Shown here piece after piece: positions 9,985 to 36,949 of a stretch of 38,735 nucleotides of DNA (position 1 is the stretch's first letter; every line of letters starts with the position of its first letter). The DNA is from Candidatus Hydrogenedentota bacterium (GTDB lineage: Bacteria > Hydrogenedentota > Hydrogenedentia > Hydrogenedentales > CAITNO01), in NCBI GenBank assembly GCA_012523015.1, contig JAAYJI010000246.1:1-38735 (forward strand). The letters run 5' to 3'. The notes beneath the pieces were generated by a model, which was not told the origin of the DNA, searched no databases, and saw only the letters and a program-made list of their open reading frames with translations. Both the position numbers and the translations under genes were made by a program.

Positions 9985-10103
9985 CGTTTTTTTCCTCCTT
10001 CAAAACAGACCCGGCGCAGGCGCAAAACCAATATTGCGCAACCGAACGATGCGACACAAAGACCGCTGTAAGGTGAAAGCGCCGCCTGTTTCAACTAATA
10101 AAT

Positions 10104-10119
10104 ATCTCGTATTTGAGAT
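10104..10119. promoter_or_regulatory. Short palindrome upstream of uxaC
   Basis: ATCTC and GAGAT form a perfect 5-base inverted repeat around a 6-base centre. It lies 120-135 bases before the uxaC start and just downstream of the putative uxaC promoter, a suitable place for a repressor operator. The regulator is not identified, and a repeat this short can arise by chance. Confidence 0.25.
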
Positions 10120-10134
10120 GAACAAGAATTTTCT

Positions 10135-10164
10135 AGTGTACTTTATTTAGGGGTAATGAGTAAA
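10135..10164 (-). promoter_or_regulatory. Possible uxaC-hemH promoter
   Basis: On the minus strand TTTACT (10159-10164) and TACACT (10135-10140) are separated by 18 bases, a fair sigma-70 match. It lies about 150 bases upstream of the uxaC ATG and would serve the uxaC-hemH pair. Confidence 0.35.
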
Positions 10165-10440
10165 GCACTACACGAATTCCCGAATTATCACCTTATGCAG
10201 AGTGATGAAAAAATGATGGGGCGGGAGTCCTATTTCTGCCTGTACAGCGCGGCGGACGCGACGCACAGGATGGACGGGAGGTGCACAAAGCTTTCCTCTG
10301 TAGGGGCACGTCCGAGGCCTTTTTACCGTTAATACAGTACCTTATACCCCTTGCTTTAGATTCCGACGCCACTTCCTTTGGCGCGCCGAAACTGTTTATT
10401 TTTTTGTCTATTTTGTCTTATTTTCTCCTATTTGTGAAAC

Positions 10441-10470
10441 TTGTATCGATACTTTTAATTCGTGTATAAT
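10441..10470 (+). promoter_or_regulatory. Sigma-70-like promoter
   Basis: TTGTAT (10441-10446) and a perfect TATAAT (10465-10470) are separated by 18 bases. It could start a leader of about 400 bases for the hydrogenase operon, or transcribe the possible gene remnant just downstream. Confidence 0.45.
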
Positions 10471-10541
10471 AGTGCAAATTGGACGCGCGAAGGACGCTGA
10501 AACGAGCCGACAACGGGCAAGCCAATAACATAAAGCGATAA

Positions 10542-10679
10542 GGATCCAAACGCAAGGATAGGGTATATCTTATTGATCTTTCAGGAGATATTGTTTTTTT
10601 CGATAACGATGACACGCCTTTAACACCGAATTTCACAGCCCAAAGTACCGGCTCCGGAACTTACTGCGAATATCACTAG
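10542..10679 (+). pseudogene. Possible remnant of a small coding sequence
   Basis: The frame beginning GGA TCC at 10542 is open for 45 codons to TAG and reads like a protein (for example VYLIDLSGDIVFFDNDDTP). The same frame is open upstream from about 10488 except for one TAA at 10539. No ATG or GTG with a ribosome site introduces it. It may be a decayed gene or chance; no family was recognised. Confidence 0.22.
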
Positions 10680-10881
10680 AAAAAGACTTTATTCCTCCAA
10701 ACAGTTCTTATCAAGCTCAAAGATACACGAAATAGACCGGAATCCTTGCTCTTCCTATTTTGGATGCGTAAACCCTGCTTATTGCTGTTCTACACGTTCT
10801 TAGTCAATTGATCCAACAACCGGATTATCCCGGCTTCATTGTCAGTATTACAAAGTCAGAATCGTATTAAGGAGATGAATC

Positions 10882-11382
10882 ATGGCAACTGCGATCTCAA
10901 CGAGCTCATTCCCGGAAGTGGAAGCGCTGCTCGCACGCTATCCCGACGCGGGTCGAGATGCACTCATTCCCATTTTACAGGAATTGCAAGATACACTGGG
11001 GTATCTGCCGCGCCCGGTGATTGCGCGGGTGGGCGAACATTTAAAGCTGCCTGTCAGCAAAATTTATGGGGTGGCAACCTTTTACAATCAGTTTCGATTT
11101 ACCGCCCTGGGCAAATACCACATCCAAGTGTGCCGAGGAACGGCGTGCCACGTGAAAGGTTCCGCCCAAGTGCTCGACGATATCCGCTGCCTGCTGGATT
11201 TGGAGCCGGGCGAAACTTCTAAAGACGGTTTATTTTCGCTGGAAGTGGTTGCCTGCATCGGCGCATGCGGACTGGCTCCCGTGATCAAAATCAATGATGA
11301 TTTTCACGCTGACATGACCACATCAAAAACAGAACGGGTTATAAAAGCCCTGAAAAAAGAGGCAAAATCCCATGAAAAATAA
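10882..11382 (+). CDS. NuoE-like [2Fe-2S] subunit of NAD-linked [FeFe] hydrogenase (HydC/HndA type)
   Basis: A 166-residue thioredoxin-fold ferredoxin like the 24-kDa subunit of complex I. The four cluster cysteines are C84 and C89 (CRGTAC) and C125 and C129 (CIGAC), with the N-terminal helical block PILQELQDTLGYLP typical of the family. An AAGGAG site lies 7 bases before the ATG. It is the first of seven genes and overlaps the next by 11 bases. In HydABC and Hnd complexes this subunit sits beside the flavin subunit and passes electrons to or from NAD(H). The complete trio encoded here supports the assignment to a hydrogenase rather than respiratory complex I. Confidence 0.94.
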   Translation: MATAISTSSFPEVEALLARYPDAGRDALIPILQELQDTLGYLPRPVIARVGEHLKLPVSKIYGVATFYNQFRFTALGKYHIQVCRGTACHVKGSAQVLDDIRCLLDLEPGETSKDGLFSLEVVACIGACGLAPVIKINDDFHADMTTSKTERVIKALKKEAKSHEK

Positions 11383-13387
11383 TGTATCCCCAAACCCTGT
11401 AAATGAAACAGTCTCCCTATCCGGCTCGTTGAGTGCGGCAGACTTAAAACAGTGCTTATGCGCCGACCACGAAAAAGACTTGGATCAGGCGCTCCGCGAC
11501 AAGTTGGCGCTGCTGCGTCACGAAGACGTTCAGCGGCCCACCATCTATATAGGCATGGGCACCTGCGGCCTCGGCGCAGGGGCAGGCAAGACGTTGACTG
11601 CGCTCCGTGCTTGGCTCGAAACGAATAAACAAGAAGCCGACATTGTGGAAGTGGGCTGTATCGGCCTTTGCAGTGTCGAGCCGATTGTAGACGTGCAGCT
11701 TCCCGGCCGCCGCCGTGTATCCTTTGAAAAGGTGACGGAAAAGATGGCGGGCAAGTTGCTTGAATCCGTGTTCAACGGCAAGACCGATGCGGCACCGGTA
11801 CTCGGACAATATGCAGGCGAAGGACTGGAGGCGTGGGACAATACCCCCGCTCTTGAGGAACATCCCTTCTTCGCGCCGCAAACGCGGCTTGTCCTCGCGC
11901 TCTGCGGTGAAATCGATCCTTGCAGTCTTGATGAATATGCTGCCCATGGCGGGTACCGCAGTCTAAACCGCGTGTTGACCGACCAAGATCCGGCCGGTGT
12001 CTGCGATGCCGTGGAGCAAAGCGGATTGCGCGGACGCGGCGGCGGCGGTTTCCCCACGGGCCGTAAATGGAAATTTGCCCGTGGTGCAGAAGGCGATCAA
12101 AAATATCTCATCTGTAATGCGGACGAAGGGGATCCCGGCGCGTTCATGGATCGTGCCATTATTGAAGGTGCGCCCCACCGCTTGATCGAAGGCATGATTA
12201 TCGCCGGTTACGCCATTGGCGCAAGCAAAGGTTATGTCTACATTCGCGCTGAATATCCTTTGGCGATCAGCCGCTTGAAAACCGCTTTGAAACAAGCCCA
12301 TGATGCGGGCTTGCTCGGCGATAACATTCTCGGTTCAGACTTTAATTTTGATATCGTGTTGAAAATGGGCGCAGGCGCTTTTGTCTGCGGTGAGGAAACG
12401 GCGCTGATCCATAGTGTCGAAGGTAAACGGGGCATGCCCCGGCCTCGCCCGCCCTTCCCCGCCGTTCGCGGCGCTTTTGGCAAACCGACCATTATCAACA
12501 ACGTGGAAACCCTTGCCAATATCCCGCCCCTCTTAGCGATGGGCGCGGAAGCCTTCGCCGCCATGGGCACAGACGACAGCAAAGGCACGAAAGTCTTCGC
12601 GCTGTCGGGGAAAGTCACCCATACGGGTCTTGTGGAAGTGGCGATGGGTACCTCCATCCGCGACATCATTTTCACCATTGGCGGCGGCGTGCCCAACGAA
12701 CGCCGTTTCAAGGCGGTTCAAATGGGCGGTCCTTCCGGCGGCTGTATCCCGGAAGCCCATCTGGATATTGAAGTGGATTACAATTCACTGAAATCGGTGG
12801 GCGCGATTATGGGATCAGGCGGCATGGTCGTCATGGATGAAGACACATGCATGGTGGATGTGGCAAAGTTCTTCATGGACTTTGTGCAGCGGGAAAGCTG
12901 CGGCAAGTGCATTCCCTGCCGTGAAGGGACACGCCGGATTTTGGAAATCCTGCAGCGTATCACCCGCGGCGAACGTAACGAAAGTACGGAAGACGCCCTG
13001 CAACGTTTCCAAGGTATCGTCTACATGGAACGGTTGGCAAAAGTGATCCAAGACACCAGTCTATGTGGTCTGGGTCAAACAGCGCCGAACCCTGTACTCA
13101 GTACGCTGCGCTGGTTCCGCGACGAGTATGAAGCCCATATCTATGAGCGGCATTGTCCCGCCGGAGTCTGCCAGGAATTGCGTTATTTTGTCATTGACCA
13201 AGACAAATGCACGGGCTGCACCTTGTGTGCGAAACGCTGCCCCACGGACGCCATCGTCGGTGAATTGAAACAAGCCCACTACATTCTTGCTGATAAATGT
13301 ATCGGCTGCGGCGCTTGTGTGAATGTATGTCGTTTTGATGCAGTTGAGCTGCGCCAATTTGAAGATGCGCTTACTGCCGCCCCATGA
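11372..13387 (+). CDS. NuoF-like NAD(H)/FMN flavoprotein subunit of [FeFe] hydrogenase (HydB/HndC type)
   Basis: A 671-residue cytoplasmic subunit with four parts. First is a thioredoxin-like [2Fe-2S] domain (GMGTCG near residue 63 and GCIGLC near residue 95). The NuoF core carries the FMN/NADH loop GRGGGGFPTGRKW near residue 222 and NADEGDPGAFMDR, followed by an SLBB segment. The four-cysteine cluster motif SCGKCIPCREGTRR starts at C510. A two-cluster ferredoxin tail occupies about residues 610-660 (CTGCTLCAKRCP and CIGCGACVNVC). The fused N-terminal and C-terminal Fe-S domains are the mark of HydB/HndC over respiratory NuoF. In bifurcating enzymes this FMN subunit splits electrons between NAD and ferredoxin. 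No other flavin subunit is encoded nearby. Confidence 0.95.
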   Translation: MKNNVSPNPVNETVSLSGSLSAADLKQCLCADHEKDLDQALRDKLALLRHEDVQRPTIYIGMGTCGLGAGAGKTLTALRAWLETNKQEADIVEVGCIGLCSVEPIVDVQLPGRRRVSFEKVTEKMAGKLLESVFNGKTDAAPVLGQYAGEGLEAWDNTPALEEHPFFAPQTRLVLALCGEIDPCSLDEYAAHGGYRSLNRVLTDQDPAGVCDAVEQSGLRGRGGGGFPTGRKWKFARGAEGDQKYLICNADEGDPGAFMDRAIIEGAPHRLIEGMIIAGYAIGASKGYVYIRAEYPLAISRLKTALKQAHDAGLLGDNILGSDFNFDIVLKMGAGAFVCGEETALIHSVEGKRGMPRPRPPFPAVRGAFGKPTIINNVETLANIPPLLAMGAEAFAAMGTDDSKGTKVFALSGKVTHTGLVEVAMGTSIRDIIFTIGGGVPNERRFKAVQMGGPSGGCIPEAHLDIEVDYNSLKSVGAIMGSGGMVVMDEDTCMVDVAKFFMDFVQRESCGKCIPCREGTRRILEILQRITRGERNESTEDALQRFQGIVYMERLAKVIQDTSLCGLGQTAPNPVLSTLRWFRDEYEAHIYERHCPAGVCQELRYFVIDQDKCTGCTLCAKRCPTDAIVGELKQAHYILADKCIGCGACVNVCRFDAVELRQFEDALTAAP

Positions 13388-13427
13388 CCTTAATCCATCG
13401 TCACATTGAAATCAAGGAGCAACCAAC

Positions 13428-15149
13428 ATGCTAAATATAACCATTGATAACAAGCCTTGCGCCGTAGCGGAAGGAAGCACTATTTACGAGGCGGCGAAAA
13501 CCTTGGGCGTTACCATTCCGACGCTCTGCCATCTCGAAGGACTGACCCCCACCGGCGCATGCCGTATTTGTGTCGTTGAAGTGGAAGGCTTTCCGGGACT
13601 GGTGCCCTCCTGCTCTTTTCCTGTTTCTGAAGGAATGAAGATAACCACCCATTCGCCGCGAGTGCTGCTGGCACGCAAAACCATTGTGGAATTGCTGCTC
13701 GCCAACCATCCCGACGACTGCCTGTACTGCATCCGCAACACCGATTGTCAGCTGCAAGATTTGTCGGGAGATTTGGGGGTGCGCCGGCGGCGCTATCAGG
13801 GAGAACGGAACCGCTATAAGGTGGACGTGTCCAGCCCCTCCGTCATACGGGATCCCGAAAAGTGCATCCTCTGCGGCAAGTGCGTGCGGGTTTGTGAAGA
13901 AGTGCAACAAGTGGCCGCCATCGACTTTATCGGCCGCGGCAGCAGCTCCCATGTGGGCACGGCATTCGATGAAGGTCTGAACCTTTCCAGCTGCATCAAT
14001 TGCGGTCAGTGCATCCTCGTCTGCCCCACAGGCGCGCTCCACGAACATGACAATATTAAAGAAGTGACGGCAGCGCTCAATGATCCTGAGCTGATGGTGG
14101 TCGTGCAGCACGCGCCGAGTGTGTCCGTCACCCTTGGCGAAGAATTCGGACTGGCTCCTGGCACCGATTGCGACGGCATCATGGTGGCGGCATTGCGCCG
14201 CCTCGGTTTCGACCGGGTCTTTGACACCTCTTTCTCCGCTGACCTGACCATTATGGAAGAAGGCTCGGAGTTGGTTCACCGCATTAAAACGGGCGGGAAA
14301 CTGCCCATGCTGACCAGCTGCTCGCCGGGCTGGATTAAGTTTGCAGAACAGTATTATCCCGATTTCTTAGACAATGTTTCCACGTGTAAGAGCCCGCAAC
14401 AAATGATGGGCGCAATCATAAAAAGTTACTTTGCCGAAAAAGCGCAAAAGGATCCCTCCAAAATTTTCAGTGAATCCATTATGCCCTGTACAGCCAAAAA
14501 GTTTGAGGCTGGCCGTAAAGAAATGGTTCACGATCACTACGCAGACGTAGACGCTGTGTTGACGACCCGTGAGCTGGCTCGCTTGCTCCGTATGCGGGGC
14601 CTCGACATTACCGCACTTGAACCGGAAGGCGCAGACACGCCCTTTGGCGAACGGACCACGGCGGGCAAGATCTTCGGTGCGTCAGGCGGCGTCATGGAAG
14701 CAGCATTGCGTACTGCCTACCACCTCCTTACGGGAGAAAATCTGGAGAAGCTCGAAGTGAACGACGTGCGAGGCTTGGAAGGCTGCAAAGAAGCCCATGT
14801 GAAAATCGGTGATTTGGAAATTGGCGTCGCCGTCGCGAGCGGACTCAAAAATGCGGCGCAGCTCCTCGACCAGATACGGGCGGGACGGAGTGATCTGCAC
14901 TTTATCGAAATCTTGACCTGTCCCGGCGGTTGTATTGCCGGCGGCGGACAGCCCCTGTCCACCGATCGCAGCGCCGTGGTGGAGCGCATGAAATCCCTCT
15001 ACGCCATTGATGCCGGCGAAAAGTCCCGTGCCTCCCATGAAAATGAATCGATCAAACGGCTTTACGATGAATTCCTCGGCGAGCCGCTCAGCGAAAATAG
15101 TCATAACCTTTTGCATACCCATTATGCCAAGCGGGAAGTAACCCTATAA
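13428..15149 (+). CDS. hydA: Catalytic [FeFe] hydrogenase subunit (HydA/HndD type)
   Basis: A 573-residue subunit that makes or oxidises H2 at the H-cluster. In order: a [2Fe-2S] domain (C34, C45, C48, C62), a His-ligated cluster motif (H94, C98, C101, C107), two [4Fe-4S] clusters (C146/149/152/156 and C189/192/195/199), then the H-cluster domain. L2 is MPCTAKKFE with C354 and L3 is EILTCPGGCIAGGGQP, both canonical. L1 reads TSCSPGW (C298, S299) where the textbook motif is TSCCPxW. The C-terminal small-subunit-like tail is present, so the protein is full length. AAGGAG precedes the ATG by 8 bases. The HydE/F/G maturases are not in the window. Confidence 0.96.
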   Translation: MLNITIDNKPCAVAEGSTIYEAAKTLGVTIPTLCHLEGLTPTGACRICVVEVEGFPGLVPSCSFPVSEGMKITTHSPRVLLARKTIVELLLANHPDDCLYCIRNTDCQLQDLSGDLGVRRRRYQGERNRYKVDVSSPSVIRDPEKCILCGKCVRVCEEVQQVAAIDFIGRGSSSHVGTAFDEGLNLSSCINCGQCILVCPTGALHEHDNIKEVTAALNDPELMVVVQHAPSVSVTLGEEFGLAPGTDCDGIMVAALRRLGFDRVFDTSFSADLTIMEEGSELVHRIKTGGKLPMLTSCSPGWIKFAEQYYPDFLDNVSTCKSPQQMMGAIIKSYFAEKAQKDPSKIFSESIMPCTAKKFEAGRKEMVHDHYADVDAVLTTRELARLLRMRGLDITALEPEGADTPFGERTTAGKIFGASGGVMEAALRTAYHLLTGENLEKLEVNDVRGLEGCKEAHVKIGDLEIGVAVASGLKNAAQLLDQIRAGRSDLHFIEILTCPGGCIAGGGQPLSTDRSAVVERMKSLYAIDAGEKSRASHENESIKRLYDEFLGEPLSENSHNLLHTHYAKREVTL

Positions 15150-15159
15150 GCCAGTTATC

Positions 15160-17163
15160 ATGAGCCAAAGCGACTGTAACATAGCCGTAGTCAACACGGT
15201 CAAAGAACGGTGCCGCGTTTGTTTCACCTGCGTGCGCGAGTGTCCCGTCAAAGCCATACGCATCATTGACGGACAGGCCGAGGTGATGCCGGAACGGTGC
15301 ATCGGCTGCGGCAACTGTGTGCGCGTGTGCAGCCAGAACGCAAAGCAAGTGCGCGACTGCACCGCCAATGCCATGTCCTTGTTGAAAGGGCCTGCGCCTG
15401 TGGCGGCGCTGGTTGCTCCCAGCTTCCCCGCAGAGTTCTCGGAATGTGAACCCGGTGAGTTGGTGGGTATGCTCCGTGCTCTGGGCTTCGAATACGTGCA
15501 TGAAGTCGCCTTTGGCGCGGATCTCGTTGCGCGCGCTTATCGGCATCTGCTCGAAAACACGCCGGATAGCCGCTATATCGCCACGACCTGCCCCGCCATC
15601 ATCGCCTATGTGGAACAGTATTATCCGGAGCTGGTCCCGCAGCTGGCGCCCATTGTATCGCCCATGATCGCTACGGCGCGTGTGGTGAACCGACTTTACG
15701 GCCCGGAAGTGCGCAGCATTTTCATCGGCCCCTGTATTGCGAAAAAGGGCGAAATGCTCAGTACCCGATTGCCGCGGGAAGTGTTCGCGACCCTCGCCTT
15801 TTCAGAGCTGCGCAAACTTTTTGATGCCGTCTCCTTGACGCCTGAAGACGTGGAGCCCTCCAACTTTGATCCGCCCCACAGCGGCAACGGTATGCTCTTT
15901 CCTATCAGCGGCGGTATGTTGCAGGCGGCTGATCTACGAGAGGATCTGCTGGAAGGCGACATTGTGACCGCTGAAGGCAGAGAATCTTTCGTCGATGCCA
16001 TTCATGAATTCCCGGATATGGATGTGGCGCTGTTGGAAGTGCTCGCCTGTCAAGGCTGCATTTCAGGTCCGGGTATCACGAATCCGGCTCCCTTGTTCCG
16101 GCGACGGAGCCGCGTGAGCCGCTACGCCCGGAGCTGCGCCGCCAAAGCCGATAAAGCGCAATGGGAAAAGGAAATGGATCGCTACAAAGATATTCCGCTG
16201 ATCCGCTCCTTCCAAGTGAAAGATCAGCGCTATGCGCCGCCCTCTGAGGAAGATATCCAAAGAGCCCTCGAGAATATGAACAAGATGAGTTCTGAAGATC
16301 ATCTCAATTGCGGCGCTTGCGGCTATGACACCTGCCGGGAACATGCCATTGCCATCTGCAAGAATCTGGCAGAAACAGAAATGTGCCTGCCCTATACGAT
16401 TGAAGAGCTGAAGCGTGCTGTGGGCGACCTTGCCCTGTCCAACACGCAGCTGAAGAAAACACAACAGGCATTGCTCCATTCCGAGAAACTCGCGAATATG
16501 GGACAGCTGGCGGCAGGTATCGCTCACGAACTTAACAACCCCCTTGGCGTGGTGCTCATGTATTCCCACTTGCTTAAGCGTGAATTTAGTGAAGCGGATA
16601 AAGTGGGTCAGGACTTGAGCACCATTGTGGAGCAGGCGGACCGCTGCAAAAAAATCGTGTCCGGGCTGCTGCAATTTGCGCGCCAGAATAAGGTGGAACG
16701 GCAGCAGGTCAATATGGATACGCTGGTCCGTTCCTGCCTCAAAGGCTTTTCCAATCACATCCATATCCATGTTAGATTACTCAACAAGCTGAGCGATCCT
16801 TTCGTGGAAGTTGATCGCGATCAGATTAGCCAAGTCTTGGTGAATCTTGTGGGCAACGCTTTTGACGCCATGGGTAAAAAGTCCGGCACCCTGACATTGA
16901 CCCTATCCGATACGACGAAACAGCTGCAGCTTGATGTGGAGGATACGGGGCCGGGAATGTCTAAAGAGACGGAGAAGAATATATTTGAACCCTTCTTTAC
17001 GACGAAAAGTATAGGCAAAGGTACGGGCCTCGGCCTGTCCATTGCCTACGGTATAGTAAAAATGCACCGCGGCGATATTCGCGTGTCGTCAAACTGCGAT
17101 CCTCATAAAGGACCTGTAGGCACCCGATTCACTGTGACGCTGCCGAGAGTTGATCTGGAATAA
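15160..17163 (+). CDS. Sensory [FeFe]-hydrogenase domain fused to a histidine kinase
   Basis: A 667-residue soluble protein. Residues 18-57 hold two [4Fe-4S] motifs ([23 protein letters not shown]). Residues 80-325 are an H-cluster domain with C144 (TTCPAI), C192 (PCIAKKGE) and C297/C300 ([10 protein letters not shown]). A further Fe-S motif (C384, C387, C392, C409) is followed by a likely coiled coil (413-445), a HisKA domain with H456 in [11 protein letters not shown], and a HATPase domain with DTGPGM and GTGLGLS. The position of the catalytic proton-relay cysteine is Thr (T143), as expected for a sensor rather than an enzyme. It matches the histidine-kinase-linked sensory hydrogenases (group C type). 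There is no transmembrane or PAS domain. It starts 10 bases after hydA. The signal, probably H2 or redox state, is inferred. Confidence 0.92.
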
Positions 17164-17210
17164 GAGCGTTTTTAAGCCGCATGACCGCGGTATTAGGGAG
17201 AAGACAATTC

Positions 17211-17612
17211 ATGAACCAGTCAGAAACAAAAGGAACAATCTTGCTTGTGGATGATGATGCTGATTTCCTGTTCCAACTGCAGGCTCAATTTGCAGCGGAA
17301 GGATATGAAGTATTGACAGCCGGCTCCGGGAAAGAGGCTATCGGTGTGCTTGCTCAGACCCGCCCCGACCTGTGCATCGTCGATTTGATGATGGAAAAAG
17401 CGGATATGGGCTTTACCCTGTGCTACAAAATTAAAAAGAAAGACCCCACCATTCCTGTGATTATGGTTACTTCTGTTACCCATGAAACGGGAATCGATTT
17501 TGACGCAGCCACCCTCGAAGAACGTTGTTGGATTAAAGCTGATGCCTTGCTGGACAAGCCCGTCCGCTTCGAACAACTCCAACGAGAAATAGCGCGTCTC
17601 CTAAAAGGATAA
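17211..17612 (+). CDS. Stand-alone receiver-domain response regulator
   Basis: A 133-residue CheY-like receiver with nothing after it. The acidic pocket is D14-D16 in LLVDDDADF, the phosphate acceptor is D58 in CIVDLMMEK, and K116 lies in LLDKPVRF. The ATG at 17211 is preferred because AGGGAG lies 12 bases upstream; the frame also opens at 17181 without a ribosome site. It stands 47 bases after the sensor kinase gene and is its most likely partner. Its closest relative in the window is the receiver at 18811, with which it shares a D-x-MME-x(3)-G loop pattern. No DNA-binding output domain is present. Confidence 0.9.
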   Translation: MNQSETKGTILLVDDDADFLFQLQAQFAAEGYEVLTAGSGKEAIGVLAQTRPDLCIVDLMMEKADMGFTLCYKIKKKDPTIPVIMVTSVTHETGIDFDAATLEERCWIKADALLDKPVRFEQLQREIARLLKG

Positions 17613-17615
17613 CCC

Positions 17616-18767
17616 ATGAACTGCCTGCGTGTATTGGTCGTGGATGACGAAAGCTATATTCGCTCCGCCATTGAACGTACCTTGGCACCCTTACAATTTG
17701 TTATGCCCGACATTGAGGAAACGGTGTGTTTCGAGTTTGAAGGCGCCGACTCGGCGGAAGAGGCCGCGCTGCGCATCCAAAGTGCAGACAAGCCCGATAT
17801 CCTCTTGCTCGACTTGAAATTGCCGGGCATGAGCGGGATTGACTTGTTGGAGATCATGAAAGATAATCTGACGGAAACGCTGACCATTATGATCACCGCC
17901 TACGCCTCCATCGAAACAGCGGTACGCGCCACGAAAAGCGGCGCCTATGATTTTCTCGCGAAACCTTTCAGTCCCGACGAACTGGAACAAGTCTTACATA
18001 AAGCCGCACGCCATCTGGTGGTGGCGAAACGGGCGCGCCGGCTCGCACAAGAACAAAAAGAAATTCGCTTTGAATTTCTCTCCGTACTCGCCCACGAATT
18101 AAAAGCGCCGCTCAACGCCATGGAAGGCTTTCTCAACACGATCATTGACCATACGGCAGGCAACGATCCCGCCGTCTATGAAGAGATGATGAAACGCTGC
18201 CTCACGCGCGCCCAATATATGCGCAAGTTAATCATCGATCTCCTCGACTTGACGCGTATCGAATCAGGACGCAAAAAACGCGTCTTGGAAAAGGTCAAGC
18301 TCGAAGAAGTGGCAAAACGCGCTGTGGAAACGATGCGCCCCGATGCGAGCGCACGGGCAATCACCATCAGCCTAGCGTGTACCCCTGAGCTCACTTTGCA
18401 AGGGGATGCGGGCGAAATCGAAATCGTGTTGAACAATCTGATTTCGAATGCCGTTAAATATAATCTGGACAAGGGGAAGGTGCATGTGCGCTGCGCAGAC
18501 AGGGGCGAAAATATTATCATTGAAGTCAGCGATACGGGCATCGGCATGAGCGAAGCCGAAGCGGCACAGCTGTTTAACTCTTTTGTGCGCATCAAAAATG
18601 AAAAGACTTTTGGTATTCATGGCAGCGGTTTGGGGCTTGCCATCGTTAAAAAAGTGGCCTTGCTCTATGACGGTACTGTTTCTTTGAAGAGCACACCCGA
18701 CCAAGGCAGCACCTTCACTGTTACCCTTCCCCGTATAAAAATGGATTCTGCCTCCGAAAAAAGGTAG
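17616..18767 (+). CDS. Receiver-histidine kinase hybrid (N-terminal receiver, C-terminal kinase)
   Basis: A 383-residue cytoplasmic protein. The N-terminal receiver (residues 1-125) has DD at 10-11, phospho-acceptor D66 in LLLDLKLPG and K116 in FLAKPF. A HisKA domain follows with H160 in VLAHELKAPLNAMEGF, then a HATPase with NNLISNAVKYN, DTGIGMS and GSGLGLAIVKK. No membrane segment or PAS domain is seen, so its input is probably phosphorylation of its own receiver, as in phosphorelay intermediates. It starts 3 bases after the previous stop with AAAGGA upstream, implying coupled translation. Confidence 0.92.
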   Translation: MNCLRVLVVDDESYIRSAIERTLAPLQFVMPDIEETVCFEFEGADSAEEAALRIQSADKPDILLLDLKLPGMSGIDLLEIMKDNLTETLTIMITAYASIETAVRATKSGAYDFLAKPFSPDELEQVLHKAARHLVVAKRARRLAQEQKEIRFEFLSVLAHELKAPLNAMEGFLNTIIDHTAGNDPAVYEEMMKRCLTRAQYMRKLIIDLLDLTRIESGRKKRVLEKVKLEEVAKRAVETMRPDASARAITISLACTPELTLQGDAGEIEIVLNNLISNAVKYNLDKGKVHVRCADRGENIIIEVSDTGIGMSEAEAAQLFNSFVRIKNEKTFGIHGSGLGLAIVKKVALLYDGTVSLKSTPDQGSTFTVTLPRIKMDSASEKR

Positions 18768-18810
18768 TATATCTTCTGTAGATCATTTCCGAAATGTGGG
18801 AGATTGTGTC

Positions 18811-19173
18811 ATGCAGATTAAAACCATCCTCGTAATAGATGATGATCCCGATATTCATTTTTTCTGTAAGAGCCTGTTGGAAGCGGAAGGCTATACGGTG
18901 AGAACAGCGATCAATGCAGCGGCCGGCTTAAAAGCCGCACGGGAAATCAGTCCCGATCTGGTCATTCTCGATATTATGATGGAAGAAATTAATTCGGGCT
19001 ATAAGGTGGCGGAGGCATTGGGCAAAGAAGTACCTATCCTCATGTTTTCGTCCATGCTCAACCCCTCGGATACGATTTTCAATCCCGACGAAGTTCCCTA
19101 TCGCGACGTAATCAGCAAACCCATTGCCGGCGAATTGCTGTTGCGCAAAGTCCGCGAGATTATCGGAGACTAA
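18811..19173 (+). CDS. Stand-alone receiver-domain response regulator, last gene of the hydrogenase operon
   Basis: A 120-residue single receiver with DDDPD at 10-14, acceptor D54 in VILDIMMEEI and K103 in ISKPIAGE. TGGGAG lies 8 bases before the ATG at 18811; the frame also opens at GTG 18796, which would place the ribosome site inside the gene. It lies 43 bases after the hybrid kinase and closes the cluster. Like the receiver at 17211 it has no output domain, so it must act by protein contact or pass phosphate onward. Confidence 0.9.
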   Translation: MQIKTILVIDDDPDIHFFCKSLLEAEGYTVRTAINAAAGLKAAREISPDLVILDIMMEEINSGYKVAEALGKEVPILMFSSMLNPSDTIFNPDEVPYRDVISKPIAGELLLRKVREIIGD

Positions 19174-19909: not shown

Positions 19910-21682
19910 TTATGCCTTTCTTCGTCGTCGGGACAGCATGAAAGCGCCTGTGCCGAGGGCTAGGATTCCCACTATAATCCCGCTGCCCAGCGGCATCGCG
20001 TCTTCCGGGAGCACCTCAAGTATAAAGGGCGTGCTCGAATAGACCTGATCATTATCGTTCATGACCTGCAGTTGATACACGCCGGCATCGCTCAGGTCTA
20101 CCGATAAGATAACATAAGAAGTGCCGTGTTCGCCGGGGATGGGGACGCCATCCTTGACCCACACATAGCCCGTGATTGTACCGGGTATATTTTGCACAAG
20201 ACTTTTCAATTCGATCCGTGTCCCCGTCGTGGTACGGGGCGAACCAAGGATGGATACAACAGGGCTTGGCGGCGTTACATGACCGGTCATTGCTTTGATG
20301 CAGATATTCCCATCGGGCATATACGCACTGTAGTCTTCATAGGTGACGCCGTCAGGACTAAAATAGCTTTGTGCCGGTCCACCCGTCGTTTGCGAAAAAC
20401 CGGGAATCGAAATTTCCACCGGAATCGGGTAGCCCATCCCCGGCGTCTCATAGCGGATACGGACGGTGAAATAGGCGTCTTCCTCAATCGTTAAAGGCTC
20501 GGGCAGAGCGATCACGTGATACCCGGCATGTTCCAAAGAAACAGAAAAGCTTAACAACGGATTGGAGAACTGATAATTGACCGCGCCGCCGTCGTAGATA
20601 ATAATTTCAAGATTGGCATTGTTCGACAAGACATAGGTACCCACGGATACCAAGCTTTCCGTCGCCTCTGCCTGAAATACGTTGGCAGCATAGACAACCG
20701 TAGAGGGAGGAAATCCCTGCGATGAGACATGACCTAAAGGGTCGTATTGATAGATACGCTCCCAAGGATATACTTCCGTCAACTCATAGAATCCGGTAGC
20801 TATTTTACAGGCTTGGTGATCGTAATAGGAGATGAAAAAATAGCCGTGGTCTCCGAAGAGGGTACCCCAACTATTCTTGCAAATCCAAGCCCCTTTGCCC
20901 GGCGCGCCGACAACGGTCTTATTATTATCCCAGCCCACAATCGTAACCATATGATTCAAGACCTCAGATCCGTTGTAATAGTAGCTTGCGGAACTTACGT
21001 CGAAAGCATTGTTCATCCATGTCATAGGCGTAATAACAGGGCCCCGGTTCATGACGGCAGCCTTGATCGGATCTTGCCCGTTAGGAGCGCCATTTTGTAG
21101 ATCGGCGTAGAGTGTCGCTTCACCCAAGCGTTTCTGAGGTGCTGCGCCCGGAACAGGCCCCGTGATCGCATGCTGATTATAGGGATCGTCGCTCTCTTTG
21201 AGAGGGCCGCTCCAGCGTGAGAGATAGGCCATGGCAAGGGAATCATTACCGCCGGCGCAGGCGTCCCACAAAAACCCATGGGTATTTTTCATGTGGTTTT
21301 CTGAAAAGTCCCACGATTCGCCCAGATGGATTTGACACCACGCTTCTAAAGCGGCACAGGTCGAAAAGGCCCAACAAGCGCCGCAAATTCCCTGATCCTT
21401 GATTGGAGTCAAGGTTATCGTGTCGCGCCAATCAAAGCGCTCCGGATAGACGGAATCGGCTTTTTCTGCGCCGAGCTCACAGAGGTGAGACCAGTCCACC
21501 GGACCGGGCACATAGCCATAGTTTCTCGCCCCGTCACCCTTGCTCTGTTGTTGGGCAGTAAAGGCAGGGTTGAAGGGGGCGGTCTCCAGTGTTTGCGCCA
21601 AAAGACTCGCGCCGCTCAGCAATCCAATCAGGATTGCCGTGCAGAAAATCGAATAGTACCGATCGTGTTGCTTGCTTACCAT
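19910..21682 (-). CDS. Secreted papain-like (C1A) cysteine protease with Ig-like domain and C-terminal membrane tail
   Basis: A 590-residue exported protease. A signal peptide ends near residue 30 (SLLAQ). The catalytic domain starts at about residue 80 with Q97 (oxyanion) and C103 in QGICGACWAFS; the catalytic His is H244 in LNHMVTIVGW and the Asn is N270 in CKNSWG, so the triad is complete. The short pro-region (about 50 residues) lacks a recognisable papain inhibitor domain. Residues 300-460 form a beta-rich region, then an Ig-like segment near 475-560 and a tail of PLGSG, a hydrophobic helix and RRRRK. That tail resembles PEP-CTERM-like sorting signals. AGGAGG precedes the ATG by 10 bases. 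Confidence 0.92.
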   Translation of the reverse strand: MVSKQHDRYYSIFCTAILIGLLSGASLLAQTLETAPFNPAFTAQQQSKGDGARNYGYVPGPVDWSHLCELGAEKADSVYPERFDWRDTITLTPIKDQGICGACWAFSTCAALEAWCQIHLGESWDFSENHMKNTHGFLWDACAGGNDSLAMAYLSRWSGPLKESDDPYNQHAITGPVPGAAPQKRLGEATLYADLQNGAPNGQDPIKAAVMNRGPVITPMTWMNNAFDVSSASYYYNGSEVLNHMVTIVGWDNNKTVVGAPGKGAWICKNSWGTLFGDHGYFFISYYDHQACKIATGFYELTEVYPWERIYQYDPLGHVSSQGFPPSTVVYAANVFQAEATESLVSVGTYVLSNNANLEIIIYDGGAVNYQFSNPLLSFSVSLEHAGYHVIALPEPLTIEEDAYFTVRIRYETPGMGYPIPVEISIPGFSQTTGGPAQSYFSPDGVTYEDYSAYMPDGNICIKAMTGHVTPPSPVVSILGSPRTTTGTRIELKSLVQNIPGTITGYVWVKDGVPIPGEHGTSYVILSVDLSDAGVYQLQVMNDNDQVYSSTPFILEVLPEDAMPLGSGIIVGILALGTGAFMLSRRRRKA

Positions 21683-25378: not shown

Positions 25379-25552
25379 CGAAGACGGTGCGCACACTCTA
25401 GGAAGAACAGGATTTTATTTTGATCGTGTTACTCCCTCAATGATGAACATTACAAACCCCCATCTATATCCACAGAACTAAAACAGCGATAAAGAAGGTT
25501 TGTTACTTATATACAAAAAGAAATGCATGCTGATCGTTATAAGGAGAATTAC

Positions 25553-28381
25553 ATGAAGAAATTACATACGTTTACGCTGGCAGTTTTGATGCTTGCTGCG
25601 TCTGCCACAGCGCTGGAAGAACATTATATTTTCCCGCTGCAAGATAAACATGTGCACGCATCAAGCTTGGTGGAAACGTCGGAAGGGGATATTCTGGCAG
25701 CGTGGTTTCACGGATCAGGCGAGCGCTGGGCCGACGATGTGGCAGTCTTGGGGTCTCGGCTCCGTAAAGGTGCCGATGCGTGGGAACCCGTATTTACCAT
25801 GGCCGATACACCCGATTTCCCGGACTGCAATCCCGTTTTATTCATCGACTCCCAAGAACGCCTTTGGCTCTTCTGGGTCGTGGTACTCGCCAACCGCTGG
25901 GAAAACTGTCTGCTCAAATATCGCCGTGCAGACGTATATAATGAAGACGGCGCGCCCCACTGGAACTGGCAAGACATCATCACTTTTCGGCCCGATGACG
26001 AGTTCCCCGATAAAGTGAAGGAAGCCTTCAAAGCATTGGATTCTCCGGAAGATCTGTGGGCGGAATATGCCCCGCCCTATTCCGAATTGATTGTGGAAGC
26101 GACGCGAGACAGCTTGAAACGGCAGATCGGATGGATGACCCGTAATCATCCTTTGGAATTGCCGACGGGCCGCATTTTGCTTCCCCTGTACCACGACGGC
26201 CTCAATATATGCCTCATGGGTATTTCTGATGATGTGGGCGAGAACTGGACGATCAGCGAGCCTATTATGGGGCTCGGTCATGAGCAGCCCACAGTGGCGC
26301 GGCGCAGCGACGGCAGCCTCCTCGCCTATTTTCGAGACAGCGGCCCGAAACCCTATCGAACGCAATACGCAACCTCCGCCGATGATGGAGAGACTTGGTC
26401 GCTCACCGAGGACACGGACATTCCCAATCCCAGTTCCAGCATGGAAATTCTGGCGCTGCAAGATGGCCGCTGGATCATGATTGCGAACGACTTGGAAGAC
26501 GGACGCCATCGGCTGGGCATGTTCCTATCCACCGATGAAGGACGCAGCTGGCCCGTGGTACGCTATTTAGACGACAACACCGAGGACTGCAGCTTTTCAT
26601 ATCCTTCCCTATTACAAGGGTCGGACGGAAGGATACACGCCTCCTATTCCTATAAGGTGCCTGAAGGCAAAACGATCAAACACGTTTCTTTTATGCCCGA
26701 TTGGATCGAGTCGGAAGATGTGGAACGCGCCGACCGGCCGGAAGAGACGACGCCCGTTGCGGATGATGCACCCGTTGCGGATGATGCGCCTGAGCCGGTC
26801 GAAACAACGAGTTTCACGCCCACAGACGGGGCGTCCCTCGTCGAGCATTGCGCGGCGACCTTGGCGTCTTGGAAAAGCTTCGCCGTGAATTACAACACCA
26901 CCTTTGTCTATACACGCGGTTCGATCAACCAAGAAGCCTTTATGGAAGGCGATATGGTCTTGGGTGAGGGTAATTTAGGACGAATCCACATTAAGCGCCA
27001 AGACAGCGACACCATCACCTATAACAGTCCGGCAGGACAGTTTGTTGTTGCGCCCGCCTTGAACAAATACACGCCCATGCCGCTGGCTGCAAGCCGCAAA
27101 AACTTGGTAGCCACCATGACCACAGGCACGGTGGAACCGCTCCTCGCCTTGTTCGGTGAATTGCTCGAAGGTCAAGTGCCTCCCTTAGATACCCTGTCTT
27201 TCACAGAAACTGAAGTGGGTGAAAAGGCAGTTTGGAATCTTAAAGGGGAAAGCAGCGATTATTTTTTAAATATGATCCTGCCCGTCACGGAACCTGTCGT
27301 TCCCCTGTCACTCACAATGAATTTTAAAGAGCCTTTGATCAACAAATATAACTTTCCCGCCGATGCCGCGCTGTCTATTGTCATGAATTTTTCGGAATGG
27401 TCGCCGGAAATTACCGTGGTAAAAGAAGACTTTGATTTCGTGGCAGCCGACGATGCACAATCCGCCACCTTAGCCGAGCTCTCTACCAAACCCAAAATTG
27501 AAGTGGGACAGCCGGCACCGGACTTTTCGCTTGACGATATGGACGGCAATTCCTTCCGCCTCCAAGAACATATTGGCAAAGAAGTTATTTTGCTGGAATT
27601 TTGGTCGACAAACTGCACGGTCTGTCAGCGGCTTGCCCCGGAACTCAATACTTTCGCTCAAGCAATGGCAGGAGAAGACGTGGGCATTTACGGCATCAAT
27701 CTGCGCGCCACGCCCGAAGCCATCGAATACTTCTTTAAAGAAGACATTCCCGTCTACCCCATTTTGATGGATAGAAACGGTTCGGCAGGTAAATTATATG
27801 ATGCTACAAGCGTGCCCAGAATGGTATTGATTGGTAAAGATGGACTGATCAAAGGCGTCTACAGGGGCATGCCCGAAGGGATTATCAACACGCTGACAGA
27901 GAAGATTCGTCAGCTGCAAACGGAACCCGCCGATTCTCCGGCTGAGGAAGCCAAGATTGTAGTGGGCGCGCAAGCGCCGGATTTCACACTGGGACAAATG
28001 GACGGCGATGAAATACGTCTTTCCGCTTTGACCAAAGAGCATCCTGTAGTCTTGGCATTTTGGGCGAGTTACTGCGGGTATTGTAAACGCGCGCTGCCCA
28101 TAGTTTTAGACGTCATGAATTCTTTTCAAGATAAAGGCGTTGTTTTTTATGGTGTGAACCAGCGGGAAAACCCGGAAAAAATCAAGGCTTATTTTGATGA
28201 TGCCGACTTATCCTTTCCTGTATTGCTGGATACGGATGCGCAAGTGGGAGGCTCCTATGAAATCCGGGGGATTCCAAGAATCGTAATCGTAGGCAAGGAC
28301 GGAATCATTAAAGGTGTACATCAAGGCTTGCAGCCGAATCTGGCTGAATTGCTAAACGACCAACTCTCTAAACTGATTTAA
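25553..28381 (+). CDS. Secreted fusion: BNR sialidase-like, lipoprotein-carrier-like and two TlpA-type thioredoxin domains
   Basis: A 942-residue exported protein. A signal peptide (to ATALEE, residue 18) precedes a six-bladed propeller-like domain, about 20-385, with Asp-box-like turns (SDDVGENW, SADDGETWS, STDEGRSW) as in exo-alpha-sialidase-like proteins. A linker with two VADDAP repeats (401-412) leads to an all-beta domain (about 430-640) resembling LolA/DUF2092-type outer-membrane lipoprotein carriers. Two TlpA/ResA-like domains follow: APDFSLDDMDGNSF with C688-TVC and APDFTLGQMDGDE with C841-GYC. AAGGAG lies 7 bases before the ATG. The second half is related to the next gene. I know of no characterised protein with this order. 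Sialidase activity is not shown, and the propeller may only bind glycans. Confidence 0.85.
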   Translation: MKKLHTFTLAVLMLAASATALEEHYIFPLQDKHVHASSLVETSEGDILAAWFHGSGERWADDVAVLGSRLRKGADAWEPVFTMADTPDFPDCNPVLFIDSQERLWLFWVVVLANRWENCLLKYRRADVYNEDGAPHWNWQDIITFRPDDEFPDKVKEAFKALDSPEDLWAEYAPPYSELIVEATRDSLKRQIGWMTRNHPLELPTGRILLPLYHDGLNICLMGISDDVGENWTISEPIMGLGHEQPTVARRSDGSLLAYFRDSGPKPYRTQYATSADDGETWSLTEDTDIPNPSSSMEILALQDGRWIMIANDLEDGRHRLGMFLSTDEGRSWPVVRYLDDNTEDCSFSYPSLLQGSDGRIHASYSYKVPEGKTIKHVSFMPDWIESEDVERADRPEETTPVADDAPVADDAPEPVETTSFTPTDGASLVEHCAATLASWKSFAVNYNTTFVYTRGSINQEAFMEGDMVLGEGNLGRIHIKRQDSDTITYNSPAGQFVVAPALNKYTPMPLAASRKNLVATMTTGTVEPLLALFGELLEGQVPPLDTLSFTETEVGEKAVWNLKGESSDYFLNMILPVTEPVVPLSLTMNFKEPLINKYNFPADAALSIVMNFSEWSPEITVVKEDFDFVAADDAQSATLAELSTKPKIEVGQPAPDFSLDDMDGNSFRLQEHIGKEVILLEFWSTNCTVCQRLAPELNTFAQAMAGEDVGIYGINLRATPEAIEYFFKEDIPVYPILMDRNGSAGKLYDATSVPRMVLIGKDGLIKGVYRGMPEGIINTLTEKIRQLQTEPADSPAEEAKIVVGAQAPDFTLGQMDGDEIRLSALTKEHPVVLAFWASYCGYCKRALPIVLDVMNSFQDKGVVFYGVNQRENPEKIKAYFDDADLSFPVLLDTDAQVGGSYEIRGIPRIVIVGKDGIIKGVHQGLQPNLAELLNDQLSKLI
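26753..26788 (+). repeat. Two 18-base tandem repeats in the linker
   Basis: The unit CCCGTTGCGGATGATGC plus one base occurs twice, encoding the VADDAP linker between the propeller and carrier-like domains. The copies differ only in the last base, pointing to a recent duplication. Confidence 0.85.
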
Positions 28382-28461: not shown

Positions 28462-29763
28462 ATGGATAAAAAAAGGTGGATCAGCCTGATACTACTTTTA
28501 GCGGTGACAGCCGCCTTCGGCTGCTCTATGGTATTTTTGAAGGTTTTTCAGAAACCTGTCGAACCGGACACGGATGCGCCACAGGCAACAGAGACAGCCA
28601 CGGATGCGCCACGGGCGACAGAGACAGCTACGGATGCGCCCGCTCCCCAATCCCCTTTGGATGGGGCTGCGCTCCTGCAAGCGACTGCGGCAGCACTGGG
28701 CACAGGTCATGCGCTCCGCGTAGACCTTGAAGCACAGATAACCGCGAACCAAGGGGCAATCACCCAAAATTCATCGATTGCGGGATCTATCGAATTGGGC
28801 GAAAACAACCTGGGAACACTCCACCTTAAAGACGAACACCTTAGCTTCAGCATTCATAATGATGCCCAAAACTGTGTGACCTTCTTATCCGAAAAGAATC
28901 AATATATAAAGACGCCGGCTATGAAGACACGGAGCGAGCTGCTCTCCCGAGGATTTCCCGGGATCATGGAAGTGCCCTTGCACTGGCTCACCTCGCTCTT
29001 GGCAGGCGCCGTACCTGACCACGATGCGTTGACCGTGTCGGAAGCCAGCTGCGACGGCGTGCCGTGCCGGGCACTGCAGGCGGATTCGCCTGAATACGAA
29101 TTGACCCTGTCCTTATCGCAAGCAACGCCGCCTACGCCTCTTTCCATGGAGGTCGTTTTGAAGCCGGAGGCCATGAAAAAACATCGCGCCCCCGCCAATC
29201 TCAGCGTCAAAATGACGCTGACCTTCCATGATTGGCAACTTGCTTTTGAGCCGCCACAGGACTATTTTACTTTCGTGCCGCCGGCAGGTGCCGTTGAAGC
29301 CACCCAGGACACTGCCGCAGCGGGAAATGCTCCCCGTGAAGGCGATACTGCGCCACTCTTTACGCTCCCGTCTCTTAACGGTGAAAGCGTGGATCTACAG
29401 AACTATGTGGGCGGCCATGTGCTAATCCTCGATTTTTGGGCGACGTGGTGCGGCCCCTGTCGCAGGGTCCTGCCTGTGCTTGCCAAGCTGTCCCAAGAAT
29501 TCGCCGAACGCAATGTCCTTCTTTTCACGATCAACCAACGGGAAACGCCGGAAAAGATTCAAGGCTTTTTAGAACAACAAGGGCTTGATGTTAAGGTCTT
29601 GTTGGATTCCGCCGGAGTGGCAAGCCGTTTGTATCACGTAACCGGTATTCCGCGCATTGTGATCATTGGTAAAGACGGCACGATCAAAAAGATTTACGCA
29701 GGCTTCTCCGAAACCCTCGAAGCATCCATTGCCGCTGTTTTAGAAGAGATGACCGCTTCTTAA
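28462..29763 (+). CDS. Membrane-anchored lipoprotein-carrier-like and TlpA-type thioredoxin protein
   Basis: A 433-residue protein with one N-terminal hydrophobic helix (about residues 5-26). A Cys at 21 (AAFGC) is a poor lipobox, so it is probably membrane-anchored or loosely lipoprotein-like. A TDAP/TETA repeat linker (residues 37-60) precedes a beta-rich domain (65-275) like that of the preceding protein, then a TlpA/ResA-like domain with APLFTLPSLNGES and WCGPC at C330/C333. It lies 80 bases after the sialidase fusion, on the same strand. Its carrier-like plus thioredoxin half matches that protein, so one gene probably arose from the other. Electrons could come from DsbD (3097). Substrate unknown. 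Confidence 0.85.
   Translation: MDKKRWISLILLLAVTAAFGCSMVFLKVFQKPVEPDTDAPQATETATDAPRATETATDAPAPQSPLDGAALLQATAAALGTGHALRVDLEAQITANQGAITQNSSIAGSIELGENNLGTLHLKDEHLSFSIHNDAQNCVTFLSEKNQYIKTPAMKTRSELLSRGFPGIMEVPLHWLTSLLAGAVPDHDALTVSEASCDGVPCRALQADSPEYELTLSLSQATPPTPLSMEVVLKPEAMKKHRAPANLSVKMTLTFHDWQLAFEPPQDYFTFVPPAGAVEATQDTAAAGNAPREGDTAPLFTLPSLNGESVDLQNYVGGHVLILDFWATWCGPCRRVLPVLAKLSQEFAERNVLLFTINQRETPEKIQGFLEQQGLDVKVLLDSAGVASRLYHVTGIPRIVIIGKDGTIKKIYAGFSETLEASIAAVLEEMTAS
28570..28640 (+). repeat. 30-base tandem repeats encoding a TDAP-ATETA linker
   Basis: Two complete 30-base units (28570-28599, 28600-28629) and an 11-base partial third are almost identical, differing at four positions. They encode the repeated TDAP(Q/R)ATETA linker after the membrane segment. 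Few differences suggest recent slippage; copy number may vary between strains. Confidence 0.88.
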
Positions 29764-36350: not shown

Positions 36351-36803
36351 TTAAAGTTCGTCTTCCTCTTCCGCCTCGTTATCAAGATCTAAAGAGTCGG
36401 AAAATTCATCATCAATTTCATCTTCGTCGACGTCATCGACGCTGATCTCGTCCGTGTCGTCGGTATCATCATCCGTAGCGGCTATAAGAGGCGCTTCTTC
36501 CTCTTCCTCCTCCTCTTCTTCCTCTTCCTCCAGATCTTCATCCATATCTAAATCCATTTCATCGGAATAGCTTTCGTCCATTTCCGACACATCAATATCA
36601 GAGGAGCCGATAGGAAGCGCCGCTTTTTTCTTTTTGCTGCGATTGGCTTTTGTCTGTGCCGAAGCAGATTCACTGCCCTCTGATCCGATCTGAATCAGGG
36701 GAGATCCTTCACACCCCTCCGATGGACATTTATAATCCATCTTTGCAGCGCCCCAATCTACAAAACGGCGCCCGCATATTTCACAATAAAATTTCGTTGC
36801 CAA
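36351..36803 (-). CDS. Zinc-ribbon protein with very acidic C-terminal tail
   Basis: A protein of about 150 residues. The N-terminus MATKFYCEICGRRF holds C7 and C10, and CPSEGC gives C26 and C31, a compact zinc ribbon. It is followed by a Ser/Lys-rich segment (KKKK) and about 75 residues dominated by Glu and Asp, including a run of 13 Glu. The TTG at 36803 is preferred because AAAGGG lies 7 bases upstream and the product starts cleanly at the ribbon. ATG at 36818 would add MKGFL. A TATAAT (36874-36879) is upstream. The acidic tail could mimic nucleic acid or bind basic proteins. I do not recognise a named family; the nearest analogy is FmdB-like ribbons. Confidence 0.72.
   Translation of the reverse strand: MATKFYCEICGRRFVDWGAAKMDYKCPSEGCEGSPLIQIGSEGSESASAQTKANRSKKKKAALPIGSSDIDVSEMDESYSDEMDLDMDEDLEEEEEEEEEEEEAPLIAATDDDTDDTDEISVDDVDEDEIDDEFSDSLDLDNEAEEEDEL
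36492..36533. repeat. Low-complexity CTT/CCT repeat encoding poly-Glu
   Basis: A pure triplet-type run (GAG/GAA codons on the minus strand) encodes the 13-Glu stretch of the acidic protein. Such runs are prone to slippage, so its length may vary. Confidence 0.8.
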
Positions 36804-36949
36804 CAGAAACCCTTTCATATCAAAATGAATGACCAAAACAGGTATAGTGGATAAAGACAATTCTACGGCGCGAATTATAGCAAAAAAAAAGACGCTACTC
36901 ACTTTTTTTTTATGAAGGAAGGAAGCCACGGAAAAGGACAGGGCTTAAA

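Follow-up and report, generated by a model that had tools for sequence, protein, structure and literature searches.

What would a bacterium sense with a hydrogenase-like protein that ends in a histidine kinase and is encoded directly behind a complete catalytic hydrogenase, and to which partner would the signal be passed? The question is raised by a contig of Candidatus Hydrogenedentota (JAAYJI010000246.1, here C246; the window is the whole stretch analysed, 38,735 nucleotides), which belongs to a metagenome-assembled genome (MAG) of 3.70 Mb in 357 contigs, 95.8% complete and 4.0% contaminated. At 10882-19173 seven co-directional open reading frames (ORFs) follow one another on the forward strand, and all seven stand in the order that the original prediction had read from the letters, that is NuoE-like, NuoF-like, HydA, sensory kinase, receiver, receiver-kinase and receiver (here E, F, A, S, R1, RK and R2; Table 1). 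The longest ORFs leave gaps from E to R2 of -11, 40, 10, 17, 3 and 28 bases; of the range of -11 to 47 given earlier the lower end stands, and 47 is reached only if R1 starts at its alternative ATG, the longest-ORF maximum being 40. We regard the genes as an operon-like run that is presumably co-transcribed, and we propose that S probably reads H2 and/or the state of the reductant pool and passes the signal by way of RK and R1, either to the hydrogenase itself or to regulators that are not linked to the operon. Gene order, its conservation, intact functional residues and co-occurrence are the observations that support this proposal, and from them we infer the identity of the signal, the route of phosphotransfer and the target.

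The first three genes encode the enzyme. A reaches 850.9 bits on NF040763, the NCBIfam model of 'NADH-dependent [FeFe] hydrogenase, group A6' whose cut-off is 765, its Pfam domains are Fer2_4, NADH-G_4Fe-4S_3, Fer4, Fe_hyd_lg_C and Fe_hyd_SSU, and its H-cluster motifs read TSCSPGW (P1), MPCTAKK (P2) and CPGGCIAGGGQ (P3); this is the group A3 arrangement of Fer2, NADH-G-type cluster, 2x[4Fe-4S] and H-domain with three H-cluster motifs. The nearest relatives in the PDB are HydA1 of 8a6t (628.8 bits, the best) and of 7q4v (585.7 bits), where P1 is likewise TSCSPGW. F carries Complex1_51K, NADH_4Fe-4S and a C-terminal 4Fe-4S pair (Pfam), and its residues 57-661 align to HydB/HoxF-type subunits (9n5u, 7t2r, 7q4v, 8a6t, 7p5h) with the C-terminal [4Fe-4S] cysteine pair covered. 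It shows the FMN/NADH site, [4Fe-4S] and C-terminal 2x[4Fe-4S] of HydB, the last of which is reported to be required for ferredoxin coupling (PMC11406978). By family, E-F-A is a complete HydABC-type hydrogenase of group A3 and of the bifurcating type. As a search for HydG and HydF found one of each above cut-off in the same genome, the H-cluster can probably be made. The genome holds two further A3-like operons, Rex-E-F-F-A on C164 (L073), with Rex and a B subunit of 1019 amino acids (aa), and F-A-E on C223 (L074), ordered B-A-C; by order and B-subunit length, not by tree, they resemble sub-types I and III of PMC11406978.

S combines a Fer4 pair, Fe_hyd_lg_C, FeS, HisKA and HATPase_c, with no Pfam match to a PAS domain. 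An alignment of 113 sequences (109-112 filled rows per position) shows its eight N-terminal cysteines C18, C21, C24, C28, C47, C50, C53 and C57, those of a 2x[4Fe-4S] pair, to be 99-100% conserved, and its kinase boxes are complete. As a single Cys, C144, precedes the Pro of the first H-cluster motif, the proton-relay Cys of group A is missing, and the sensory [FeFe] classes are reported to lack it (PMC8163306). Two N-terminal [4Fe-4S] motifs, an H-domain without that Cys, the Cx2Cx4Cx16C motif and, as signalling domain, the fused HisKA and HATPase_c are features of group C, and we take S to be a group-C-like sensory [FeFe]-hydrogenase-kinase that would bind an H-cluster. Within group C, HydDB links C1 to histidine kinases and C3 to phosphatases (PMC5037454), and the T subunit of sub-type V was assigned to C3 (PMC11406978). 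In an AlphaFold2 (AF2) model built on 48 sequences (mean predicted local distance difference test score, pLDDT, 85.5; predicted template modelling score, pTM, 0.64) the H-domain matches [FeFe]-hydrogenases in the PDB and the kinase part matches ZraS. A long helix, 410-475, begins directly after C409 and carries His456, which suggests a direct effect of the C-terminal cluster on the helix of the kinase. The H-cluster motifs and the position of S in the operon would also suit an extra catalytic or structural hydrogenase subunit that senses nothing; the lack of a proton-relay Cys before C144, the complete kinase boxes and the occurrence of S without adjoining A3 subunits make this hardly credible.

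The seven-gene order is not found only here, and one refuting condition set with the original prediction thereby fails. S is near full length (E < 1e-150) in 27 of the 60 genomes searched, the window's own included and the copies of G039 and G058 being cut by contig ends; G002 has a fragment in addition. Six other genomes (G001, G003, G005, G010, G018, G025) have exactly the same order, and in G002, at the edge of a contig, part of S is followed by R1-RK-R2. Among GTDB genome contigs a scan found at least 560 relatives, of which the best-scoring 80 named loci were kept. Among these 80, A lies upstream in 65, RK is present in 76, R1 in 71, Rex in 44 and any of HydE, HydF or HydG near S in 27, several of the missing genes being explained by contig ends. 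A, S, R1 and RK occur together in 61 loci, across at least 15 named phyla, and are joined by E and F in 52; the core of the operon is therefore widespread, and neither the order in the six genomes nor that of E-F-A-S-R1-RK in the 52 loci can be put down to chance. R1 follows S in 60 of the 80 loci and precedes it in 11; loci in which it precedes S and is still in the cluster are L078, L083, L089, L090, L096, L101, L102, L105, L109, L124 and L151. A second sensory-hydrogenase-like gene (289-359 bits to S) lies on the opposite strand upstream of E in Bacteroidota loci (L095, L106-L108, L111, L114, L119, L120, L125, L126, L128-L130, L135, L137, L139), its PAS domain being confirmed on L125 only.

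The two main partners of S are kept under different circumstances. We compared 90 deduplicated loci with enough flank, leaving out one member each of five duplicate pairs (overlap confirmed over 3 kb), three short contigs (L018, L022, L072), five loci of undecided orientation (L068, L070, L071, L073, L074; PAS-type or other operons) and loci with too little flank. Both A and R1 are present in 71; two have A but lack R1 (L066 and L069, the S of L069 being of the PAS type), three have R1 with no upstream A (L075, L109, L150) and 14 have neither (Fisher p 8e-12, kinship of loci ignored). RK stays with S in 16 of the 17 loci that have no A. RK, which accompanies S even without A, is thus the usual partner of S, and R1 belongs with the hydrogenase.

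The 14 loci with neither gene bear on whether the signalling genes serve another process, such as motility or fermentation choice, and merely share a transcript so that their level follows the hydrogenase. That 17 of the 90 loci have S-RK type genes without upstream A would fit this view, as would nine of the 14, where no hydrogenase gene was noticed within the stretch fetched. Against it, the S-RK pair diverges from a [NiFe] hydrogenase operon in L044 and L054 (both have NiFeSe_Hases; in L044, 51K, Fer2 and Oxidored_q6 were tested as well) and from a Rex-E-F-A operon in L063, and at L127:8312-15886 a tight run of Rex-S-RK-HydG-HydF-HydE places S beside the maturases with no hydrogenase structural gene adjoining; in L091 an A-like gene lies ~6.5 kb before S. 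With R1 accompanying A as well, service to another process is very unlikely.

The [NiFe]-linked loci, which are two genomes of one family, also offer a glimpse of what such a receiver can do. Behind the [NiFe] large subunit a single open frame encodes a hydrogenase maturation protease followed by a receiver (L044:13835-14737, L054:14259-15098); the protease part scores 75.6 and 71.6 bits on TIGR00072 (cut-off 47.45), Pfam matching the receiver only, and the receiver shares the DLMMExxDxG stretch with R1 and scores 81 and 75 bits against R2. A receiver of the R1/R2 sort can, by the look of these frames, be tied to hydrogenase maturation, which is no proof for R1.

The partner proteins R1 and RK keep their phosphorylation residues. 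R1 and R2 consist of Response_reg only, and RK of Response_reg, HisKA and HATPase_c (Pfam). In R1, D24, D25, D68 and K126 are 99-100% conserved (86 sequences), and in RK conservation of D10, D11, D66, K116, H160, N274, N278 and the G boxes is 100% (100-105 sequences). The genome contains 26 matches to RK and 11 to R1, operon copies included, of which the operon copies are the sole close ones (next-best 113.8 bits for RK, 48.4 bits for R1). R2 has homologues of 145-213 bits in only seven other Hydrogenedentota genomes among the loci examined and in none of the best 80 loci at 120 bits or more; receivers of 50-78 bits after RK in 10 of the 80 may be distant R2 relatives or unrelated. At the cut-off used R2 is specific to this clade, where it was presumably a later addition.

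We envisage that S binds an H-cluster and would read H2 and/or the reductant pool in the cytoplasm. Its C-terminal [4Fe-4S] domain would lead, with no PAS domain between, straight into the His456 helix, and as the two are joined directly, kinase activity would change with the redox state of the cluster. S and RK may form the core pair, in which the receiver of RK takes phosphate or modulates RK's own kinase, and R1 would tie this pair to the A3 hydrogenase; the output would most likely adjust hydrogenase synthesis, maturation or activity. As the operon encodes no DNA-binding target, R1 (or R2) would have to act through protein contact, be it on the enzyme, on its maturation or on a regulator encoded elsewhere.

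Several observations weigh against this scheme. In 109 of 111 filled rows the third motif of S is spaced CxxC (CxGC) and so falls one residue short of CPGGC (of the other two, L124 has one extra residue and one a shifted Cys), and this shortening leaves H-cluster binding by S at the level of a prediction; residues 437-448, in the helix before His456, have pLDDT < 50. RK is absent from three of the 73 A-bearing loci (L051, L069, L079), two of which have R1. The sample of phyla is uneven, as 37 of the best 80 loci, and 35 of the 61 with A, S, R1 and RK, are from Bacteroidota. Distance correlations over all loci look modular, with 0.85 for S-RK and 0.48 for S-A; the latter rises to 0.71 within Bacteroidota and 0.75 within the rest. 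Separate inheritance of signalling and hydrogenase modules, at which the overall values hinted, was thus weakened by splitting by phylum, and we do not claim it. Covariation of kinases and receivers in 83 paired loci (Neff 73), at presumed specificity positions, was compared with the null; z was -1.30, 0.76, 0.69 and -0.63 for the four pairings, hence no wiring signal. Finally, no DNA-binding, enzymatic output or HPt domain was matched in S, R1, RK or R2 (Pfam).

The last two results also touch the wording of the original prediction, which spoke of a phosphorelay and of a self-contained circuit. A multi-step phosphorelay has an HPt or HPt-like carrier between two receivers, and no such carrier was found, although the HisKA of RK could substitute; together with the null covariation this leaves the term with partial support at most. 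That the circuit is self-contained is doubtful, as the four signalling proteins have no output domain of the DNA-binding or enzymatic kind, and Rex, frequent at related loci, is missing here. What Pfam and NCBIfam do bear out is one run in which a group-C-like sensory hydrogenase-kinase and three partner proteins are joined to a complete HydABC. The absence of an output domain and the other kinases and receivers of the genome would agree with an unlinked DNA-binding response regulator that S and RK phosphorylate and that controls this operon and others, R1 and R2 being phosphate sinks; we consider this unlikely, as R1 is tied to hydrogenase genes across phyla, which a mere sink does not require, and no candidate regulator is linked here.

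Control by Rex was considered separately. Rex is often the first gene of the operon in relatives (two examples were verified with Pfam and NCBIfam), and at 51 A-bearing loci with both flanks it lies upstream in 17, downstream in 17 (34 of 51 in all) and is absent from 17. The best Rex site has on average 2.52 mismatches at 23 Rex-first loci (5.0 in shuffles; 12 loci with at most 2), 3.4 at 20 Rex-downstream loci (4.57 in shuffles) and 4.82 at 22 loci without in-line Rex (4.99 in shuffles), L099 of the last class having a site with 2 mismatches and a Rex gene in divergent orientation. At the operons of the window, of G001, G003, G005 and G010 (same family) and of G018 both Rex and a significant box are missing, the Rex genes of these genomes lying elsewhere. 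In the window leader the generic consensus finds 4 mismatches at best (9986-10882) and 5 in the last 400 bases, which is chance level; a matrix of seven boxes beside the rex genes of the window's family, G018 and G025 is equalled by 17 of 200 shuffles for this leader and by 27 of 200 for the best of five related leaders. With no Rex gene or significant box at the operon and both searches at or near chance, Rex control of the window operon is rejected, with some reserve on account of a weak site at 10432-10449, a short way before the TATAAT at 10465. Inspected by eye, the alignment of this leader with its five relatives has only an AGGAG before the start codon in common, in most of them; no other shared promoter element was seen. 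As G025 has both Rex and R2, the few genomes at hand suggest that R2 was gained before Rex was lost in this clade.

The frequency of Rex, an NADH/NAD+ sensor (PMC5317091), in the same operons of relatives bears on what S reads. S could be a general redox sensor of reduced ferredoxin or NADH, in which the N-terminal clusters, with their eight invariant cysteines, admit electrons, H2 is one of several reductants and the H-cluster is a redox buffer. We consider this somewhat unlikely, since the conserved H-cluster cysteines and the linked H-cluster maturases indicate that H2 chemistry matters. A narrower form of our proposal holds that R1 is a phospho-switch acting on the hydrogenase or its maturation at the protein level, so that an H-cluster sensor would set the amount or rate of a second H-cluster enzyme, and that the S-RK/R1 loop replaced an ancestral Rex (NADH) control in this clade. 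The receiver-protease fusions beside S-RK hint at such an output of R1, and we put the idea forward as a doubtful one; if it were true, a control loop from hydrogen to hydrogenase would extend over at least 15 phyla.

The joining of HydABC with a sensory hydrogenase is not novel in kind and is already on record. Genes for sensory [FeFe] proteins are often found in one operon with those of group A (Land et al. 2020, PMC8163306), and in the same phylum a survey of 179 Hydrogenedentota genomes described five A3 cluster types, of which sub-type V has a histidine-kinase T subunit adjoining A (Zheng & Huang 2024, PMC11406978). With sub-type V (BfuTABC) the window operon shares the order C-B-A-T, a kinase-bearing T and a P1 with Ser (TSCSPxW), and it falls there by order and domains, not by tree. 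The example genome of that sub-type, CSSed162cmA_463, is G005 (contig SKQZ01000353.1 is identical), of the window's family, whose seven-gene run (L037) has an S 71% identical to ours. The main text of that paper has no match to 'response regulator', and R1, RK, R2, the co-occurrence rule and the loss of Rex go beyond its account as far as this text extends.

S resembles the sensory group C/D [FeFe]-hydrogenases TmHydS and TamHydS in its N-terminal 2x[4Fe-4S], its H-domain without proton-relay Cys and a Cx2Cx4Cx16C of the same spacing, and in that the genes are often found with group A hydrogenases (PMC8163306, PMC8924675); a PAS domain is present in TmHydS and missing from TamHydS, whereas S ends in its own histidine kinase. 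The CxGC of S stands apart from this likeness, the third motif of TmHydS being outside the comparison. In Caldithrix abyssi (Cabys_3675-3678) Rex and a Rex site precede an A3 hydrogenase (PMC5317091, whose main text has neither 'response regulator' nor 'sensor'), in contrast to the window operon, which lacks both; a Calditrichota MAG locus, L103, reads Rex-E-F-A-S-R1-RK-HydE-HydG-HydF, like the Rex-HydABC cluster of Caldithrix. An analogy is offered by the regulatory [NiFe] hydrogenases of group 2b, in which an H2-sensing hydrogenase controls a two-component system governing hydrogenase expression (HydDB, PMC5037454), yet in the window the metal site differs, sensor and kinase form one polypeptide and the operon has no DNA-binding regulator. 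The open-licence literature searched holds no description that we found of the conserved R1/RK pair, of R1 going with the hydrogenase and RK with S, of S-RK beside [NiFe] protease-receiver operons or of the loss of Rex in this clade; subscription papers could hold one. By its gene content the operon belongs to a widespread type that has been described in part, and represents a Rex-less variant that bears R2.

Direct physiological evidence for the function of sensory [FeFe]-hydrogenases is scarce, and their role has been called putative (PMC8924675). With the kinase on the same polypeptide, receivers adjacent and residues intact, the system can be tested in vitro, H2 in and phosphate out. The R1/RK rule, the receiver-protease fusions and the clade that lost Rex yield predictions that separate the sensing of H2 from that of NADH, and an enzyme-level from a transcriptional output.

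Table 1. Positions of the operon genes, the leader and key sites of S in the window
Feature	Position	Strand	Description	Basis
Leader	9985-10881	+	~900 bases, no annotated gene, between divergent uxaC and operon; TATAAT at 10465-10470	
E	10882-11382	+	HydC/NuoE-like thioredoxin [2Fe-2S] subunit, 166 aa	PF01257, E 2e-49
F	11372-13387	+	HydB/NuoF-like FMN/NADH subunit, C-terminal 2x[4Fe-4S], 671 aa	Pfam, PDB matches
A	13428-15149	+	Group A3 [FeFe]-hydrogenase catalytic subunit HydA, 573 aa	NF040763, PDB
S	15160-17163	+	Putative sensory [FeFe]-hydrogenase fused to histidine kinase, 667 aa	Pfam, alignment, AF2
S, H-cluster cysteine codons	15589-16059	+	C144 (TTCPA), C192 (GPCIAKK), C297 and C300 (ACQGC)	99-100% of 111
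S, C-terminal Cx2Cx4Cx16C	16309-16386	+	C384, C387, C392, C409	100% of 111-112 aligned
S, phospho-acceptor His456	16525-16527	+	H-box	100% conserved in 111 sequences
R1	17181-17612	+	Single-domain receiver; alternative ATG start 17211	PF00072
RK	17616-18767	+	Receiver-HisKA-HATPase kinase, 383 aa	Pfam
R2	18796-19173	+	Second single-domain receiver; GTG start, ATG at 18811	PF00072

Scans for tRNA genes and Rfam families gave no matches in the window. Promoter-like sites number 13 (7.6 in shuffles, standard deviation 2.9) and terminator-like sites nine (11.4 in shuffles), and we claim none of them as functional. Among the other genes, a protein of 192 aa on the reverse strand (36351-36929) has a region with cysteines and a strongly acidic tail, with no Pfam match at 1e-6. 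A papain-family protease, also on the reverse strand (19910-21682), carries lectin-like and Ig-like domains and, judged by eye, a C-terminal tail like a membrane anchor. Two tandem proteins, at 25523-28381 and 28462-29763, end in AhpC/TSA-thioredoxin domains; in the first of them BNR (sialidase-like) repeats occur as well, together with two redoxin domains.

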